The position numbers and the translations under genes are program-made. 64,000 nucleotides of DNA from positions 7,090,501-7,154,500 of the forward strand of contig CP126191.1 in the NCBI GenBank assembly GCA_030272155.1, read 5' to 3'. Source of the DNA: Tetradesmus obliquus. Lineage: Eukaryota > Chlorophyta > Chlorophyceae > Sphaeropleales > Scenedesmaceae. Under the pieces are notes generated by a model. The model saw nothing but the letters and a program-made list of their open reading frames with translations. It was not told where the DNA came from and made no database searches. Shown here piece after piece: positions 51,482 through 64,000 of this stretch (its first letter is position 1; the number at the start of each line of letters is the position of its first letter).

Positions 51482-53483
51482 TGGCACTAAAACGGCAACA
51501 GCAGTATAAGCATGATGCGCCGTTGTGAAGCATGCTGTTATCTCAGGCGGTCTGTGTCAGTCTGTTTATCCATTGCCAATGTCGTGCTGGTCGTATCACT
51601 GCATGGCTGGCTGTTCTGTCACAGAGCTCGCGGCATGCTTCACGCCTGCTGTCCCAGCATGCTTGGCTGCTTGCACTTGCATGATGTGGAGCACAGCTTG
51701 ACGGGTGCGGCATGCACAGCTCGCTTCACCCATCATGGCAGCCATAGCAATCCTTCATCAGCTGCAAGCCGCTGCTATGTGAGCAGTTTGTTGACGAGGT
51801 GATGGCATCAAAGCATAGATACCATCTACTGTACTAGCGCTGGGGTGCTGCTGCAAGTCTGAGGAGCTGGTGTGCAGGCAAGCTTGCGTAAAGGGTTGTA
51901 CCAAACCTGGGACCTGACAGACAATGGCAAGAGCCAGCACTGGTGCCTGTCATTGGCCCCCCAACGGGCGAGGTGACTTGTGTAAGCAAAATGTGGGGAG
52001 CTGTGTTGGCCACCTCAATGTTCAACATTTGATGCATCGTTATTCGATGCCTGCTCAGCAGATGTGGAAGCAGTGCTGGCAGGGATTGCCATTTCCACAT
52101 CTGCAAAGTACACCCCAGAAATTTGAGGTCTGTTTCCCATGAAGCCAGTGCCACTACGTACAGTGTATGCGTTACCGCAGACATGGCAGGAAAGGCTGAA
52201 TATGGCAAGGCAAGGCAAGGCTGACGCAGCCTACAGTAGGCTCCAATGCTGACGAATGTCGACTTGTTGACAGTAACACAGTGCGAGTTGACGACGCTGA
52301 TATTGCTGAAATCCGTCATGCGCTCTGCCGCGTGACGATCGGCCAGCAGGAACAGCAGTAGCTATGCACCCACTGGGCCAGCTGCTGACCTGTCATGCAT
52401 GGCTGACCATGGCATGCCAGCACCAGTGACAGCTTGTGAAGCCTGCCAGGCCACAGCAATCTAAGTACCGTAGATCGTGCAACACTGGTCCTTGCAGCAA
52501 TGCTGCTCCCTGGTACAGCCGAGATCTGTGCGCCACGACACACCGCGTGCTCGCAGTACAGTTGTTGTCATCTAGCACTACTAATCTGAACAATTTGCGG
52601 CGATACTGAAATATCGTGTGCCTGTGTTGTTGTTTTTGCCATTAAATACTAAATTTTGTGCTGCAAAGCCGTATTGGTCCTCTAAGCCAGGGCCTGGGGT
52701 TGCGGTTATTGCGACCGCACTTTGACTGTCTTACCTCGGCCCTGTCACGCCTTGAGACCGCCGGGGATTTGTTTTCATTACCTGTGACTTTGTTAGAACG
52801 CTGTTCAGGGCATGTTAGAGATGTCGGGGCTGTGAGCAACGTTTTTTTAGCCTGCGGAGGAGCACGCTGCTGGGATATGAGACTGTTTTGGGATTGATTT
52901 ATATGTGCACAATAGGATATGCTACCCGTACCTGGGCAGCGGCTCGCTCGTGGCTTGTATACGGGTGGACCAGACCCAGGTGAGCTTAAGCAGCAGCTAT
53001 CAAGCGACAGGCAGGCAGCGCGCTTACTTTGAGTTTCAATGTAGCTTTCCATGTTAATGAATTAGTGTCTACCAAGGAACAGCCTGCTGGACATGCAGTC
53101 AGTAGCCCAGCGACAGCAGCTTGGCTGGCAATCTAAACTCAATACTTGAAACCAGCTAAATCCTTTCATTGCTTTAGATGTAATCAGCGGTCGCTGCTGC
53201 CGCAGCTGTTGGTTTCAAATGAGAGCAGCAGCTATGATGTCGCCGCCTCGAAGCAGGGTGCAAAGCCTTTTAGCAAGTACTTGCAGTTGTTCTTGGAGCT
53301 TTGTGGGCCGTGCCGCAGCATTGCAGCGCTGGTAGGTCGAGTTCAACAGCGAATACAGCATGAGGCTCTTTGCAGGCAACAGCCTGCTTCACAGGCTCAA
53401 CAAGGCCCTCGAAGATGACATTGATTGGCTATCTGAGCTCGCGAATCCCTTTTGCTGCGCGCTTTTCGCAGTTAACTGGCTCC
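51482..53483. other. Interval upstream of the HECT fusion gene
   Basis: 2 kb without a supported coding exon. A TGTAA at 51981-51985 may end the TM-protein transcript. The region after about 52620 may be promoter and leader of the HECT gene. An in-frame ATG at 53415 would add 23 residues to that gene. Confidence 0.45.
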
Positions 53484-56400
53484 ATGGGGCAAGGGAGCAG
53501 CAGCACAAGAAGTAGACCCTTTGACGACGAAGGCTACATCGTCCCAGCAGGTAATGCAGCAGGCGTGGCCATTCTGCTCAGGCGGTTGATGAGCTGCACA
53601 GCATGCCAGCGCAAGCAGCATGCGCGATGTGTATGCAGCACAGCAGGGCTGGACTGACCTACGCTGGTACTGCTGCCTGCAAATTGACTGCTTTGCAGGT
53701 GCAGCTGAATCAAGGCAGTCAGCGTCATCTAGGACTACGAGTAGTCAGCCAGGAACCCCGGCAGCAGTAGCATCAGCAGAATCAGGGCAGAGTCAGAGTA
53801 GCAGCAGCACAGCAACCCCCAGCAGTGGTGGTCAACAGGTGAGCACGGGGTGCTGTTGACTGCAGCAGGGACTGTTCTGACTGTGCTATTTACAAATGAC
53901 TGTTCCTGTTGAGCCAGCACTTCCGGGGCTTCAGTTGACTTCTTCGGCTCACTTTGTGTGTGCCTGCTTGCAGACCCCGGCAATGGCTCAGGCTGCAGCG
54001 CAGCAGCCTGCAGCAGCAGCACCTGCAGCCCCAAGGACAGTACCTGTACATAAAAGTACTGCCATCATCCCAGGATGGTCACGGCCGCTGTCTTCGCAGC
54101 AGCTCACCATAGAATGCCAAAAAATCACGCAGCCCAGCAGGACGGCGTCAGCAAAGGAGTGCTATGGTGTGATGGAGCTGGAGGTCATGAAGTTCGTTGC
54201 CTACTGCGGCGGTCTGACCATCAAGCTGCGAGTTGATGACCTGCAGCATGGGCAGGTTGACAGGTGAGGATCCAGCACTGCTCTCAAGCAGCAGGAGCAC
54301 CCAAAAAGCATTGTTGACTGTGACCTGGCGCTGTCACCAACTCAGCTGCAAAAGCTCACAGCTGTTCTGTTTCCACTGTTCAACTCAAAGCCTGAGCTCA
54401 CATACTTCCGTGTCTGCAACTGCCTTTGTTGCCTGCAGCGTGACCTGGGGCCTTGCCGCAATGCGTCCGTGCCACGCTCTGGCAAACAGCAGTGCAGCTG
54501 GCAGCGGTGGCAGCAGCTCACCAGATCGACGGGCAGGCACTCCTACTGGCAGCCGTAGCGGGAGCAGCGCAGGGTCCAATGCTATGAACAAGGCACACCC
54601 AACCACTCCTGTGACTGTGCAAAACCCTTCACAGAAGCCGCTGTATGCCATCTGCACCACAGCAACTGTGGCCCGCGTGACCAAGGGAGACGTGTTGTCA
54701 ATGGACCTAAGCCCCAAGGAGGATGGCCAGCCAGTCATCATGGTGACGCTCAGCCACAACGACAGCGTGCTGCTGCGGGCGGCGCTGCCCTGTGCCAGCA
54801 TTGCAGCGCTGCAGATGTACCCTTTTGTGACCGTGCTGGTGGGTGGCTGCGCCCAGTACTCACCTTATGCCATTACCCGAGCCTGAAACCTTATGTATAT
54901 TTTGAAGCCATAACCCAAGCTATTGCAGTTGCCATGCGTATGTAGTCTGAGCATGCTAGGACGCGTGCTTCAATACATCATAGCCTGCAGTTGCTTTGGC
55001 TTTCTTGTTCAGCATGTAAGTGCAACCGTGTTCACCTAGCCTTACACCTGCTGTGCTGCTGCTGCTGTTGATGCTGCACTGTCCCTTCTGCATGCTCCTT
55101 CCTTGCAGTCTGGCATGGTTGTGTCGCTGCATGAGGCGCTGACCCCAAGCCCGCTGTTCACCTGGTACTCGCCAACATCAGCAACAGCGGACATCCAGAT
55201 GGCAGACCTGGACACGTGCGTCAAGTACAACACTGCTGCCAACACCATCAGCAGCGGTGTCTCGGAGTTCCACGGTTCCACCACCTTCACTGGTGGCCGC
55301 CACAGGTGGACAGTGCAGCTGGACAACATGGGGCAGCTGCCGGGGCACATCTTTGTAGGTTTGGTCAATTCGGAACCCAACCAAGCCCCCAGCAGCAGCA
55401 TACTGGCATCAGCACTGCCTGCCGCAATCAGCAGTCGCATGCTAGCCATCCCGGGATCCCCACTGGCAGCCCAGCCTGCAGCTGCAGGTGGTGTGCCAGT
55501 GTCGCCTGCTGCAGCAGCAGCAGTCTCGGCAGCTGCTAGCCCTGCTGGCACTTCAGCAGCAGCTGCTGCTGCAGGCATTGCAGCGTTGGGCCAACTGGGG
55601 CCAGCTGGGCCTCAGCAGCGCAGGTGGGGTGTGTGGGTGAAGCTGCCAGGGGCGCCGTCAGCTGGGGCTGCACCTGCTCAGGCCACCGCAGCTGTGCCGC
55701 CCAAGCTGGGAGATGTGCAGTTTGTGGAGTCTGTCAACAATCACTGCTGCATCACGGTTGACCTAGACCTGATAGGAGGCTACGCCAAGTTCTTCAGGAA
55801 CGGCCACCTGCTGGGCCAGGCCTTCACAGGCTTGACAGCTCCTATCAGCCCTGCATTGGCATTCCTGCAGGTGAGGAACAACACACGTAATGTTAATACA
55901 CGTTGTGACTAAGCCAGCTAGAGCGATGTTGCCTTGAGAAAGCAGCAGATATGCATGCATTGTGGTGCCACGACAACAGCAATGCAATGTCTGTATTGCG
56001 TTACTGCTGAGGCAATGGGTCGGCTTTGTTGTCAGCTGGGGTGGGCCTGACTGCTGACCTGGCTGCACTGCTGCTGCATGCAGGGCACCAACCAGCACCT
56101 ACAAGCTGGTCTAGTGAACATCACCAAGCTGCAGCAACTGGACCTGGAGTGGAACCCTGAAGCGTGCAGCGGGGACCTGCGAGTCACTGGGCGTGTGGTG
56201 CAGAAGGTGTCAGAAGTGTTTGGTGACTACAGCACAGTGCTGTGCAACCAGGGGTTCATCAGCGGGGTGCACCTGTGGCTGATCAAGGTCAACAACCTGT
56301 CAGAGCCAGACAGCATCTTCATCGGAGTGTGCAGGGGCTGCATGCCACTGGACCAGGACCCCCAGGTGTGTACTGGTGGCTCTTGGGGTTGCCCAGATTG

Positions 56401-59400
56401 CACTTCATGAGCTGCCAAGGAGATGCCAAACAACAGGCTAGGGATTAGCAGCACATGTCTTCCTAAGCAACCATGTCGGCTACGATGCAGCTTGTCGGCG
56501 CCAGTCACGCGGATGCGTGACACTTTTCTTCGCTGCCATGCTTGCTGTGTGCACTGCAGGACCTGCGTGACCGCACCTACTACCTCAGCAACGGCGTCAT
56601 CCGGGTGGGCGGCCGCCGCGTGGCAACAAACGCAGCTGCCTTCACAAAGGGCGACATTGTGGGTGTGGTGCTGGATGCGGACCAGGGGGAGATTGTCTTC
56701 CTGCGCAACGGCATTGAGCAGGGACGAGCACGTGGCATCCGTGGCCGCCTGTACCCCTTCGTGTCCTTTGACAGCGAGCAGGACCAGATCACACTGCTGG
56801 GTAAGCTGTGTCAAGCCGGCAGGTGCTGAGTTTGCTGCTGGGCACATGGTGGCGGATGCTCAGGCTGACATGAGGATTAGTGGTGTGGAGGGCCGGTGCT
56901 GCTTCTTTTGTACATGCTGTGCACACATTTTTCTGGTGTTTCTTGCTGCTGACTCGTCTGTGCCTTTGACTTGCAGGCTCTTACACGCTGCCATTGAATC
57001 GCACTCCCCGCACCCTGGCGGACATGGAGTGGGACACCGTTGGCCGCAGTGGTGACATCGAGCTGTCCAGCAACTGCCTAACAGCCACCAAGACCTCCAG
57101 TGCCAGCCCATCTACTGTCAGGGGCACCATTCTGTACAACGACACAGGTGTACATGAGTTCCACGTGATCCTGGACAGCTTGGGACCTGATGGCATCTGG
57201 GTGGGTGTGGCCAGCCCTGACATGGACCCAACCAAGTGCGTAGGCGACGTTGGCTGCGGGTGGGCCCTGCACAGTGATGGCGACAGGCGATTCAACGGAC
57301 GGGAAGAGGAGTTCACAGGTGTGTGGTGCTGGCTGTGTTTTATGCACTTTGCAATATATGTGCGCCACCAGGTTGTACAGCACAAGCTTACCAACACGTG
57401 CTGGCTTTCTGCATAACACTGTGCTGGCATCACAGCGACACACAAAGTTGCTGTTGCTGCTATCCTGTCATACATATGTCTGGTTTGCTGCTGCTGCTGT
57501 TGCTGCTGCTTCACAAACAACAAACATCACATCATATTCCTCATTGGCTACAGGCATGCAGCTGTACTGATATGTTGCAAAACATTTGTTGCATGCAGGT
57601 GCCTTCAAAAACGGCGATGTGCTGACAGTTGCCATGGACCTGGCCAACGGCATCCTGCGCTTCAGCCGCAACGGCATCCACATGGGTGACGCATTCACCG
57701 GGGTGAAGGGGCCGCTGGTGGCAGTGGTGACTCAGGCCAGTGAGGAGAGCAAGGTCACAATCCAGAACAGGCCGACAGTGCTTAACATGGGCGAGTACAC
57801 GGGCGAGCTGAGGTGCGTGCAGGCTGCAAGAAGCCAGCCAGTACCAGATGTAGTGACAGCATGCTGACTGTTGTTCTGCTGTATTTATCTGTGCAGCGGA
57901 GGCTGTGCAGTTATGTGGAACTCAGCCACCAGTCTCTTTGGGTATGTGTCATGTTGCTGCTTCCTAGTGCTGAACATGCTGTTGCTGACTCTTCTGCTGC
58001 TGCTCCCGCTGGCTCTCCTGCTGCCAGGTGGGATGAGGTGCGTGCTGGCAGGGACCTGCACGTCATCGACGGCCTCACAGTCACCAAGATGTCCAACGAG
58101 GGCGGTGACTACGCCACGGTCCTGGGCACCCTGTGCGTTGCCAGCGGCCAGCACACCTGGAACGTGTACATCAACCACGTGGAGGACAGCAACCTGTTCA
58201 TTGGTGTGACTGTGGGCGGCCATGACCTCAACGCAGACCCACAGGAGATGAAGAGCCGCACATACTACCTCAGCAACGGCACCATTCGTGTTGCTGGCAA
58301 GCTGGTGACACGCTGCGCCGAGCCATATGCTGAGGGTGATCTTGTGACTGTGCAGCTTGACATGGAGCAGCACCACATCTCCTTCTACAAGAATGGCATG
58401 CTGCAGGGCGCCGGAGACGGCCTCCCAGGTGAGAGCAGTGCCTGTGGTTTCGGTGATAACGACAGCTGTAACCAGATGAGCCGCCACATTACCAACTGCT
58501 TGTGCGCCTTTCAGCTACAGTTCAGCAGAGTGATAGCCAAGCTGCCAGCCATCCTCCTACTGGAGGGATCATCACTGCATGTGTTCTGCTTCCCTTGCGC
58601 TGCAGAGGAGGTGTGGCCTTATGTGTCGCTGGACAACATCATGGACAGCATCACCCTGCACAGCAGCAACATGTTCCTGGACCTGGCGCACAGCCTCAAG
58701 TGGAATGGCCAGAAGTGCTGCCAGTGGATTCAAATCAGTGAAGATGGCACCACAGCCAGCCTCAAGCCACATGCGCAATTCGACTCCTTCTTGGGACAGG
58801 CAACGGTGCTGGGGCTGCGGGAGTACAGCCGCACAGAGGTGCACAGCTGGGTCGTGCGCCTGGAGCAGGTGGGTTGCCCTTGTGTGCAGGCACTTGCACA
58901 GCCGTGGCTGTCCAAGCTTTGTTCTGCAGAAGCTGCAAGCTGCTTGGTTTTAATGTTCAGCAGGCAGGCAGGCAGCATAATCTGCAACATTGACTCACAC
59001 CTCATCACGTCATGATCACCAACTCACACCTGGCCTGCTCCTGCCCTGTGACTGCCTGTGCCTTGCAGCCGCCCAACACAAACATTGCCAACTTCCTGGT
59101 GGGTGTGGCACCGGCCTCCATGGACCTCAACCACAGCATTGGGCAAGAGGGCTGCGGCATTGGCCTGGACTACTACGGCTACATCTACATCAACGGCAAG
59201 TACTTTCATGTCAGCAACCTTGCCAACTGGCAGCAGGTCGCCAAGCCCTGCCGCGGCTCCACTGCGCGCCACAAGGGCAAGGCTGGGCCCATGTTCAGGT
59301 TCCACGAGGGCAAGTGTGAGATCACCCTCACGCTGGACCTCAAGGAGGGAACCCTGCGCTTTAGCAGCGGTGGCCACAGCATTGGAACACTGGCCAATGT

Positions 59401-62400
59401 CAAGGGCCCAATGCACGCAGCGCTGACCCTCACCAGCACCAAGCAGGCAGCACAGATTGCAGCAGGTGAGCCTGGTGGGCTTTGATGGCTGTTCTGTGCT
59501 GGCACTGCTTGGTTGTCCCTTCGCGCAGCTCTTTCCTGTGCTGAGAAGCTGGTGTCATATATAATGTGCTACATGTCAGATATGGTTGTGTTCTGCATTT
59601 TCCTCCAACACTGCCAAGCATAGAACGGTGCACGAACCCTGAACATGCTGATGTCTGCATATTTTCCTGTTAGGTCCCATTGGCAAGACAGAGCACACTG
59701 CTGAGGAGCTGGTCAACATCCTGAAGGCCAAGGGCCACCTTGGCAACCAGCGCGCAGAGGCAGCAATGTTGGTTGTGCCACGCGACCTGTTTGTGCCGCG
59801 CGACCGGCACCGTGAGGCCTTCCGGGACCAGAAGGTGACCGTGCGCATGCCAGATGGCTCCACGCTCATCATGCCCAACCCCAGCTTTGTGGCAATGGCC
59901 CTGGAGAAGCTGGACCTGCAGCCGGGCAGCAGCTTCCTGGATGTGGGCTGCGGCAGTGCCTACGTGACTGCTGTGGCAGCCTGCATGATTGGCCCGACTG
60001 GCACGGTGCATGGCATCGAGTGCCTGTCCAGCCGCCTGGAGAACGGCCGCAACAACCTGCGCCTGCTGAAGGAGCGCCTGCCACCCGAGCACGTAGTGAA
60101 GAACCTGGCTGTTGCAGGCTCAGTGCAGGCTGCCATCAACAATGTACACCTGTCATTGACCAACGTGCTCATCCCTGAGTGCACGGATGGCATGCTGTAC
60201 GATGCCCTGTACTGCGACAACTCCCTGTCAGAGGAGGATCTGCCAGCATTCCTGTCGCTGCTGAAGCCCAATGGGCGCATGGTGGTAGTGATTGAGGAGG
60301 ATGTGCTGCTGATCGCGCGGAGCAGCACCGACGCGCACGACTACAAGCGGGAGAGCCTCACCAAGATCACAGGCGACTTTGGCGAGCTGGAAGATCCCAC
60401 ACCCTGGGAGGTGCAGGAGGCGGTGCAACGGATCAAGCAGCGGGAGCTGGAGAAGGGCCTGGCAAAGGCAAAGGTGCGCAGCACAGAATACGCAGCATCA
60501 GGACAGTGTGGGCGTAGCTGCTGGAGTGCAGCACAGTGTACAGCTGCAGCTGCCAGGCTCTGTTGGCCTGTCTACTGTGACTAGCGTTGCAGCTATTGCC
60601 AGTGCTGGAAGCATGCCAATGCTCTGCTGATCGTGCTTTGCAACTGGCTTGAATTTAACTGACATGAAGGTAATCTGTGTGTAACCTGTATGCTGAACAC
60701 ACAGGGGGAGGTTGGCAACCTGCGCAGCAATGAGCTGCTGGACCTGCAGAGTCGCATGGGGGCAGCAATGCAGCGGATTGCAGAGCTGGAGACGGCCCTG
60801 CAGCGCAGCAACGGAACAGCAGGCAGCAGGCCGGCTGGCAACGATGATACCCGGGCTGTGATCAGGGACAACAAGTTCAGGCGTACACCGCGCATCTCAC
60901 CACACAACAGCGCACGCAGCCCTGGCTCGGACCCCAGCGCATTTGCAGGCAGCGCGTCAGACAATGTCAAGATGCGCACTCGCCAGGTGAGATGTGCACA
61001 CTGGCTACGGCTGCGTGCAATGGTGTGCTGCAGCAGTTTCGCTAACTGTGTGGACGTGCATGCTTTCAAGGCATCCTCCAGCTGCACATCAGCTGCTGGG
61101 CCGTCTCCAGCTCTGCAGTCCGCTGCATGCCCAATGTATGTGAACCTCAATCAATTCTGCTCATTCAGTTCTGTTGTTGACATCTGTGGCACAAACTGAA
61201 TACGCTGGCCTTGCCATGCTGCTGTGGCCAATCCTGCAGGTGCTGGATGACTCTGAGGAGCCTTTGATCCGCTCAGAGAAGCTTGCTTTAGAGGAGAAGC
61301 TGAGCTGTGGCAGCGGCAAGATTGGCACATTACTACAGGCACCAAGCAGCTGCGCAGACGTCATGCAGGCGTTGGGCGTGCAAACGCTGACAGTGGCGCA
61401 AGTTGCCAGCGTGACAGCTGGTGTGCAGCCGCAGCAGCGTGCTGGCTTCCAGTTGTTTCAGGGCAGCTTCCGTGGCACACGCGTGTCTGCCTGGCGGCTG
61501 ACCATCAACCAGCCCATCAACACGCTGGAGGTGCACAGGGCTTACTCCAGGTTCTGTGCCGCACACCCCAACGTGTGTGCAGTCATGGGCATCTGCCTTG
61601 AGCCGCTGGACACAGCAGAGCCCATGGATGAGGATGGCTGCGGCAGCCCCACACGCGCAGCAGCCCAGCAGCAGCAGCAATGGCAGCAGCAGCCCCTGCA
61701 GGAGGTAGAGGAGGCTGGCTGCCACCTCTGGGTGCTTGAAGAGCACCATGGCAGCCAGACCCTTGCAGCACGCGTGGAGCAGGGCCTCATCAGCTGGCAG
61801 CACTGCCTGTCCATCGCACAGGATGTAGGTTCTGCTCTAGCCTACCTGCAGTCGCTCAAGCGCATCTGCCCCATCACGGCTGATGCGGGTGCTGAGGTGC
61901 TGGACAGCAATGCCCTGGCAGCTCCGCTGTCTCCACTGGCAGTGGCGCAGATGCTGGTGTTGGACAATGTGCAGGTCAGCACTGCAGCGACGGCCAAGAT
62001 TAGCTTGGTGCCAGCGTTGCTGACGCAGCTGGAGTTTGCCCTGTGTGTCGCGCCTGACACACAGCGGGTGGCAGAGGTCAGCTCATTGCTGCTGCCCTAC
62101 ATCCACCCAACTTCCATGTTCAACAGCATCAGCAGCGCCGGCACACAGCAGGCAACTGGGCAGGCCTTTGACGGGCTGTACAGTTATGGTACTGTGCTCT
62201 TGCAGTTACTGACTGAGCGCAGCGCCCCAGGCCTGCTGGGGACGGTGCAGGCAGCTATTCAGCAGCGGAGCTTAAGCAATCTGGTGCCACGCACGCCAGG
62301 TGCAGGCCCGGACAGCGAACAGCTGGCAGCAGACTTTGCAGCACTAGCATTGCGCTGCTGTGGCTGCCAGCAGCAGCAACATCAGCAGTCGATAGCAGCA

Positions 62401-64000
62401 GCTTGGCCTGCAGACCAGCAGCAGCAACAGCAGCAGCAGCAGTCATTGTCGTTAGATCTGCATGTGCTACCGGCGCTGCAGCAGCTGCAGCGCAAGCTGG
62501 AGGCGTTAGGCACATCTGCCATGTCCTGGGAGCAGGTCGAGGAGCTGCTGATGATGCCCCTGCAGCCCAGCACCAGCAGCAGTGATCCCACCACGCGGCG
62601 CTGGGTGCGGCAGGACTTCAAGATGCGGCGCAAGTTGTTCCTTGAGGAGGTAGCAAAGATGGCAGTTGAGGGACCAATCCACAAGATCGAGGTCCGCCGC
62701 TCTCGCTGCTTCAAGGACAGCGTGGCTACGTTCAGTGGCAAGGTGAGACGACTGTATGTGCTACAGTCGGCCCACAGCTTACTGCGGAAGTGCGTCTGCA
62801 ACTTAGCTACTTATGTTCGGCATCTGGCAGATAGCAGCTCTGCCTCTGCCTGAAAGTACAACCAGCCATTTGATACACATCGCGGCTGCAGCCAAGGCGC
62901 TGACGCATCCTGCTTGTGCTGCATCTGCTCTGTTGCTGCTCCATGTAGGGCCAGAATGTCTGGCGGCAGCCGCTCAAGGTCACCTTCATTGGTGAGGCAG
63001 GCATGGACAGCGGTGGTGTGACGCGCGAGTGGTTCAGCAGCATATGCGCTGCGCTGCGCCGTGGCAGCCTGGACCTGTTCTGGGCTGGTGGCCCCATTCG
63101 CAACCAGCTGTACATCAACCCGCTGTCCAACAGCGCAAGCCACCTGAAGCGCTTCCACTTTGTGGGGATGCTGATGGCCAAGGCGCTGCTGGAAACTGCT
63201 GCGCGTGGCAAGGAGCTGGGCCCTGTGGTGCTCAACCTCAGCTTCTGTGAGCCATTCTGGAAGCTGCTGCTGGGCATCCCACTGGGGTTGATGGACCTGC
63301 AGGCACTGGACCCCACCGAGTTCAGGAGCCTCATGCAGATCCTGCAGCTGGACATTGATGGGTGAGTGGCAGGCACAGTGGCTGGCACACCAGCCCACTT
63401 GATCAGCGGCAGTTGTCGCTGCTCAGCTGCACCTCTTGTTATGTTTTATGCACTCAGGTAATGATGCTGGCGACAAGCAGCCTGCTGCTGGTCACCCAGC
63501 TTTACTGAAGTGGCAGTGGATACACAGCAGCTGACATTGACACTGGCCTTTCCCCCTGCTTGCCCTGTTGCTGCCTGCAGGCTCATCTTTGAGAACTTCA
63601 CCTGGAATTTCCAGCACACGCAGCGCGGCAACGGCGCCAAGGATGAGCCAGAGATTCCCGCGCTGCCCAGTGGCGCCAGCCCCTTCAGCGGCGACAGCAG
63701 CTCGCGCGTTGACGCCAGCATTGCACTCAAGCCTGGCGGCAACCACGTCAAGGTCACCAACACCAACAAGCGTGAGTACGTGCTGCTCAAGGCCCAGAAG
63801 ATGCTGTGGGGCACCGTGGAGGCGCAGATGAGTGCAGTGATCGACGCATTCCACAGCCTGGTGCCGCGCGAGCTGGTGGAGAAGTACGGCTTCTCACCCC
63901 TGGAGATGCAGATGCTGGTGTGCGGCGAGCAGAACATTGACATTGCTGATCTGCGCCAGCACTGCAAGTACGAGGACGGCTACACCGGCAAGGAGCCGCA
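53484..64000 (+). CDS. Giant SPRY(x6)-PCMT-pseudokinase-HECT E3 ubiquitin ligase, 3' partial
   Basis: Seventeen exons with phase kept throughout: 53484-53550, 53699-53838, 53974-54263, 54439-54838, 55109-55870, 56084-56365, 56560-56800, 56977-57318, 57599-57812, 58028-58428, 58606-58868, 59069-59465, 59674-60473, 60705-60986, 61240-62742, 62949-63361 and 63581 to the edge; about 2,405 residues so far. Ser-rich N-terminus; six SPRY-like units (about 90-1266; markers such as RTYYLSNG, ILRFSRNGIHMG, HTWNVYINHV); PCMT methyltransferase domain (about 1267-1533; FLDVGCGSAYVTA, GPTGTVHGIE); coiled-coil linker (about 1534-1627); kinase-like fold lacking the catalytic Lys, HRD and DFG (about 1697-2010; LWVLEEHHGSQTL, YSYGTVLLQLLTER); HECT N-lobe (from about 2085; GEAGMDSGGVTREWF, LVCGEQNIDI, EDGYTG). 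The C-lobe with the catalytic Cys lies past 64000. MGQGSS at the chosen start fits N-myristoylation; ATG 53415 is the alternative. Confidence 0.85.
57897..57941 (+). other. Candidate 45-nt in-frame cassette exon in the HECT fusion gene
   Basis: Between exons ending at 57812 and starting at 58028 lies a stretch with an acceptor (GTGCAG) and donor (GG/GTATGT). Its length, 45, and its phase let it join both neighbours without frameshift, adding 15 residues (GGCAVMWNSATSLF type) to the fifth SPRY unit. Other units have no equivalent insertion, so skipping looks like the default. Confidence 0.35.

Follow-up and report, generated by a model that had tools for sequence, protein, structure and literature searches.

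A candidate HECT ubiquitin ligase of Tetradesmus obliquus that would carry SPRY units, a PCMTD-like domain and a putative pseudokinase in a single chain

Here we analysed a gene lying at the 3' end of a 64,000-nucleotide stretch of the genome of the green alga Tetradesmus obliquus (bases 7090501-7154500 of contig CP126191.1, called C1 below). This whole stretch is referred to as the window, and positions are given in its numbering unless a contig is named; the genome that was searched comprises 104.66 Mb in 17 contigs. The gene was modelled by hand from open frames and splice sites, and in this model it starts at 53484 on the plus strand and consists of 18 exons that encode 2519 amino acids (7560 nucleotides including the stop codon). 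All of its 17 introns are of the GT-AG type, their phases are consistent, and the 2519 codons are free of internal stops. An earlier note, made by a model from the letters of this DNA, had described seventeen exons that keep one frame and encode one polypeptide. The single frame stood, and in the genomic sequence it does join SPRY units, a protein-L-isoaspartate methyltransferase-like (PCMT) domain, a kinase-like segment and a HECT domain, but the count did not, there being 18 exons once a 45-nucleotide exon in the SPRY region is included. Exon 18 runs past the edge of the window, and the downstream sequence places its stop codon at 64297-64299, so that a gene ending at the window edge is ruled out. 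Scans of the window with Rfam and ARAGORN found nothing. The features of the gene are collected in Table 1. With moderate confidence, we read its product as a single-chain HECT E3 ligase whose recognition half would be formed by the SPRY array and a PCMTD-like PCMT domain of the receptor type, with a presumed pseudokinase between that half and the HECT domain.

Table 1. Features of the candidate ligase gene, in window numbering
Feature	Position	Strand	Remarks
Whole gene, exons 1-18	53484..64000, running on to 64299	+	exon model, 2519 amino acids
Exon 1, start MGQGSSS	53484..53550	+	start codon uncertain
Exons 2-4 with introns, Ser/Ala/Gln-rich N-terminus	53699..54838	+	by eye perhaps SPRY unit 1 in a very diverged form, without Pfam match
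Weak SPRY unit 2 (exon 5 and start of exon 6)	55109..56137	+	16.1 bits, under cut-off 26.3
SPRY unit 3	56138..57014	+	39.7 bits, over cut-off; borders by eye
SPRY unit 4	57015..57801	+	46.1 bits, over cut-off
SPRY unit 5, including 45-nucleotide exon 10 (57897-57941)	57802..58691	+	34.8 bits, over cut-off
Weak SPRY unit 6	58692..59465	+	14.5 bits, under cut-off
Exon 14, PCMT domain	59674..60473	+	Pfam match 59700-60143; best PDB match PCMTD1
Intron 14	60474..60704	+	donor 6.4, acceptor -5.7; TGTAA at 60680
Exon 15, 94-residue linker	60705..60986	+	phase 0 on both sides
Exon 16, kinase-like segment and poly-Q runs	61240..62742	+	end-to-end alignment 61420-62376; local 61720-61860
Exons 17-18 with intron 63362-63580, HECT domain	62949..64000	+	Cys codon and stop beyond window

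The C-terminus is the part of the protein whose family is clearest. Once completed with the sequence beyond the window it yields a single near-complete HECT domain in Pfam (PF00632; E = 5.8e-70; profile positions 3-303 of 306), and the best structural matches of exons 17 and 18 in PDB are NEDD4L (E = 1.7e-52), HUWE1 (4.7e-50) and UBE3A (3.6e-37). The segment LPAAHTCFRQLDLP of exon 18 aligns with LPRAHTCFNRLDLP of NEDD4L, which is the TCF segment of that protein (E = 1.3e-40 for exon 18). The earlier note had pointed to the sequence past 64000 as the place to look for the catalytic cysteine, and this residue was found there: it is Cys2486, encoded at 64194-64196, in the context HTCFRQLDLP as compared with HTCFNRLDLP in NEDD4L. 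A HECT domain devoid of its catalytic cysteine is thus ruled out, and by its sequence features the protein is a HECT-type E3 ligase. The presence of both N- and C-lobe and of the active-site TCF motif likens it to ligases of the NEDD4/HUWE1 type, from which it differs in that Pfam, applied to the whole protein in pieces at E values up to 1, found no C2, WW, UBA or WWE domain; lacking C2 and WW, it was not assigned to NEDD4. HERC1 combines SPRY and HECT in one chain and is not known to have PCMT or kinase-like segments. The HERC1 SPRY entry is matched weakly by the algal units 3-5 (E = 0.0033), but no RCC1 repeats were found in the same Pfam scan and membership in HERC was rejected.

Exon 14 matches the PCMT family in Pfam (PF01135) with 77.1 bits (E = 2.1e-21), passing the cut-off of 20.3. 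The earlier note had drawn a parallel with PCMTD1, and the PDB search bears it out: among the 14 sequences matched at E values up to 0.01, PCMTD1 is the top one (E = 2.7e-12) with 50.2 bits, versus 44.8 for the next best, 4o29, and 29.8 for 1i1n, these scores coming from pairwise matches only. The match to PCMTD1 covers residues 10-222 of the exon product; the best stretches of the others stop at or before residue 132, except for that of 2pbf (10-213). The algal domain and PCMTD1 also have in common HGIE followed by YC. The NCBIfam model of the PIMT enzymes (TIGR00080) scored 76 bits over residues 6-132 only and did not reach its equivalog cut-off of 159.05, and the Pfam and NCBIfam matches lie mainly on the first half of the domain, which binds S-adenosylmethionine (AdoMet). 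No SOCS box appeared in a Pfam scan of exons 14 and 15 at E values up to 1, from which a short diverged box could escape.

Comparison with 30 prokaryotic sequences of the PCMT family (one from each of 30 loci, lower-scoring PCMT-like proteins included) showed the algal domain to be identical at 27 of the 69 positions that are conserved in at least 75% of them. It is in the AdoMet-binding half that the domain resembles the canonical enzymes, the corresponding stretch reading DVGCGSAY with the motif mostly kept; its third glycine, present in 30 of the 30 sequences, is an alanine in the alga, and this replacement weighs against our reading. The QTIS(Q/A)P loop is the substrate loop of PCMT/PIMT, and here the domain differs from the canonical enzymes: in the alga the loop reads LIMPNP, the serine (24/30) being replaced by proline and the last proline (29/30) being kept. 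Gap placement next to this loop is uncertain, but LIMPNP lacks TIS in every register. Because the AdoMet motif is mostly kept, the loop is lost and the score falls far below the PIMT cut-off, we consider AdoMet binding by the algal domain plausible, whereas canonical isoaspartyl catalysis is not expected.

These observations bear directly on the reading offered in the earlier note, in which aged, isoaspartyl-containing proteins are bound by the PCMT domain and receive ubiquitin directly from the HECT domain. The PCMT fold and a near-complete HECT domain are indeed there, and the nearest solved relative, PCMTD1, works with a ubiquitin ligase. Nevertheless, we consider this reading unlikely, and the recognition of isoaspartate by the domain unsupported, since the loop is changed, the matches fall mainly on the AdoMet half and the score stays under the PIMT cut-off; since by eye LYCDNS stands where the canonical PCMT of this genome has IHVGAA, that canonical enzyme being encoded by a separate gene with exons containing QTISAPHMHA and IHVGAA; and since, in excerpts of two papers, isoaspartyl methyltransferase activity of PCMTD1 was either not apparent (PMC10798966) or not detected by one study cited there (PMC11514484). 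A dual enzyme, in which PCMT would be an active methyltransferase on another substrate and methylation would mark or time ubiquitination, seems to us distinctly improbable: the mostly kept AdoMet motif and the retained acidic residue of HGIE agree with it, but the glycine-to-alanine replacement and the loss of the known substrate loop speak against it, and the excerpts of PMC10798966 and PMC11514484 offer no precedent.

Between the PCMT and HECT domains lies exon 16, in which the earlier note had seen a degenerate kinase fold. We compared it with a kinase profile that was built by searching iteratively through the open frames at 30 loci which PF07714 had found in this genome, exon 16 not being one of them. 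Using hmmsearch, exon 16 scored 14.8 bits and the best of 2000 shuffled versions 8.6; in a set of 98 other open frames, the two that contain exon 16 scored 14.8 and 14.4 and the next one 7.5. End-to-end alignment with hhalign gave 93.9% over 230 columns; 100 shuffles reached no more than 0.7%, and five segments from elsewhere in the protein no more than 0.2%. In local mode the value was 94.1%, versus at most 5.7% in 100 shuffles and at most 6.5% in 96 real open reading frames (the 98 frames minus the two containing exon 16, all trimmed to 600 residues). The pieces found by hmmsearch follow each other in the order of a kinase, with what we take to be the HPN motif (-3.1 bits), the stretch from the hinge to helix E (7.8) and that of helix F (5.1). 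Exon 16 has three weak matches in other parts of the genome, one of which (C12:734478-734741; E = 0.032) overlaps a kinase match (C12:734388-734627). Active protein kinases have a VAIK lysine, an HRD aspartate and a DFG aspartate, and the strings HRD, DFG, VAIK and VAVK are missing from exon 16. NCBIfam returned one sub-threshold kinase match (E = 0.042; 12.4 bits versus a cut-off of 460). Runs of 3 to 9 glutamines were observed in exon 16 at 61666-61692 and 62368-62442.

Several results weigh against a kinase fold in this exon. Pfam returned no match (E up to 1 for the exon and up to 10 for its four pieces) and neither did PDB (E up to 10); the local hhalign match spans only 47 columns (query 101-147); no single hmmsearch piece is strong alone; and a single-sequence AlphaFold2 model of the segment was uninformative (predicted local distance difference test score, pLDDT, 39). 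Together with the poly-Q runs, the silence of Pfam and PDB, the shortness of the local match and the uninformative model would suit an alternative in which exon 16 is a low-complexity linker that resembles a kinase by chance. The profile scores of exon 16, however, exceed those of 2000 of 2000 shuffles with hmmsearch, of all 100 shuffles whichever hhalign mode was used and of all 96 real frames, and the three pieces are collinear. We therefore regard the linker as rather unlikely and the segment as probably a pseudokinase, which upholds the kinase likeness claimed before, with the reservation that Pfam does not recognise it and that the local match is short.

Whether all these domains belong to one protein depends above all on intron 14, which connects the PCMT domain to the rest and is the weakest link of the model. 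Its acceptor is the poorest of the 17, and just 5' of it there is a TGTAA pentanucleotide; TGTAA is an algal polyadenylation signal. Both facts count against a continuous gene and would be expected if there were two, a SPRY-PCMT gene ending in or near intron 14 and a gene for linker, kinase-like segment and HECT domain starting in exon 15 or 16; the fusion of their products would then be an artefact of the model. Reading through from exon 14 meets a stop codon at 60582-60584, and exon 15 contains in-frame ATG codons, both of which favour such a division. On the other hand, the gap of 231 bp is hardly wide enough to hold both a terminator and a promoter, the donor of exon 14 is fair, and an alternative in-frame acceptor scoring 4.1 lies 45 nucleotides downstream, just 5' of 60750, the use of which would drop 15 residues. 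TGTAA, which is absent from the 7262 exon bases, occurs in 3 of the 17 introns. The introns at the two critical joints, of 231 and 253 bp, are both in phase 0; exon 15 is thus in phase 0 on either side, and the frame is kept whether this exon is included or skipped. Third-position G+C content is 0.72-0.86 across exons 14-18. Taking these data together, we find two genes very improbable and consider that exons 1-18 very probably encode one protein, presumably from a single mature transcript.

The N-terminal half of this presumed protein (residues 1-1282) matched only SPRY in Pfam (E = 9.4e-38, in three stretches). We delimited six SPRY units by eye, three of which exceed the Pfam cut-off of 26.3 bits, while two are weak and one is unmatched (Table 1). 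Units 3 and 5 have in common the motif RTYYLSNGxIRVxG (exons 7 and 11; 56560-56800 and 58028-58428, by eye), which suggests that a pair of units was duplicated within the gene. At the extreme N-terminus there are two candidate starts, at 53484 and at a second in-frame ATG upstream, at 53415. The former gives MGQGSSS, which we take to be an N-myristoylation-like motif. The latter would give a hydrophobic, arginine-containing N-terminus, with an organelle signal being possible.

Relatives of the gene were sought in the same genome exon by exon, and the counts that follow are hence lower bounds. The protein of exon 14 matches only itself at E values up to 0.001, and a second copy of the gene was thus rejected. 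Besides itself, exon 16 matches a fragment on contig C4 and, weakly, three other places (E = 0.025-0.22). The fragment (C4:386611-386805) comprises some 60 isolated amino acids that share 81% identity with residues 1924-1979, encoded in exon 16 (86% at the DNA level over 179 bp), sits between kinase matches at C4:382225 and C4:390799, and looks like a partial duplication. The PCMT family gave five further matches at three places. At C1:4575682, on the minus strand (about 5200-2800 of the locus), lies a further PCMT-like gene, which contains the stretches NISAPHM and LDVGCGCGF, is apparently split into several short exons and resembles the PCMT domain of the window at the RREAW/HREAF stretch. 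HECT matches numbered 26, grouped by hand into nine places, and SPRY matches seven, three of them in this gene. No relative with the same architecture was found in the viral contigs and genome contigs scanned, which included no other eukaryotic genome, and the lack of such a relative tells against our reading; with the PCMT exon as the sole query, the scan of genome contigs recovered one bacterial PCMT.

As regards what has been described before, plant HECT genes have been divided into six subfamilies, for the most part characterised by Arm, IQ, UBA or ubiquitin domains, and a few green-algal genes remain unplaced under 'Others', one in Chlamydomonas and two each in Ostreococcus and Micromonas (Marin 2013, PMC3712016). 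The algal protein resembles these genes in having no Arm, IQ, UBA or ubiquitin domain according to Pfam. The words SPRY, PCMT, methyltransferase and kinase did not turn up in a term search of the same paper. In the accessible part of the open-licence literature we found no description of PCMT combined with HECT, be it with SPRY or with a pseudokinase, although print may hold one; the protein would accordingly be a ligase of a known kind, HECT, with a recognition half that we did not find described in that literature.

The closest functional parallel may be that of the animal PCMTD proteins, whose function was previously unknown according to the excerpts of PMC10798966. In these excerpts PCMTD1 binds AdoMet and CUL5/ELOB/ELOC, and PCMTD2 is presented as a substrate receptor of CUL5, the clients named being receptor tails, with no mention there of a requirement for isoaspartate (PMC10798966). 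As in PCMTD1 and PCMTD2, a PCMT-like domain is tied to a ubiquitin ligase in the alga and canonical isoaspartyl activity is not expected of it; unlike in animals, where according to the same excerpts a SOCS box brings in a cullin-RING ligase (PMC10798966), the alga would have HECT in the same chain. The comparisons support a built-in PCMTD-like receptor in a HECT ligase. The SPRY units and the PCMT domain would select the client, and ubiquitin would most likely pass from a charged E2 to Cys2486 and from there to substrates held by the SPRY units, the PCMT domain or both. The PCMT domain would probably act as a binding or sensing module occupied by AdoMet or S-adenosylhomocysteine and not in isoaspartyl repair, much as PCMTD1 and PCMTD2 serve CUL5, and the kinase-like segment would probably be a pseudokinase scaffold, spacer or switch between the recognition half and HECT. 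What the sequence itself shows is the open frame, the homologies to SPRY, PCMT and HECT, the cysteine at its expected position and the altered PCMT substrate loop; the remainder of this scheme is inference.

A more ambitious proposal is that of a damage or metabolite checkpoint in one chain, where an AdoMet-bound PCMT domain would sense isoaspartyl or otherwise altered proteins, or the level of AdoMet, the pseudokinase would relay the signal and HECT would ubiquitinate the client. We think it quite unlikely, and if true it would mean that the PCMTD route had been invented independently and without a cullin. Returning to the receptor-type ligase that we favour, a PCMTD-like domain fused to a ligase in so distant a lineage would, if true, be independent evidence for a role of this fold in ubiquitination, and a protein made of one chain is simpler to assay than a CUL5 complex. 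If it is real as one protein, the Tetradesmus ligase may do in one piece what takes a complex of several proteins in animals.

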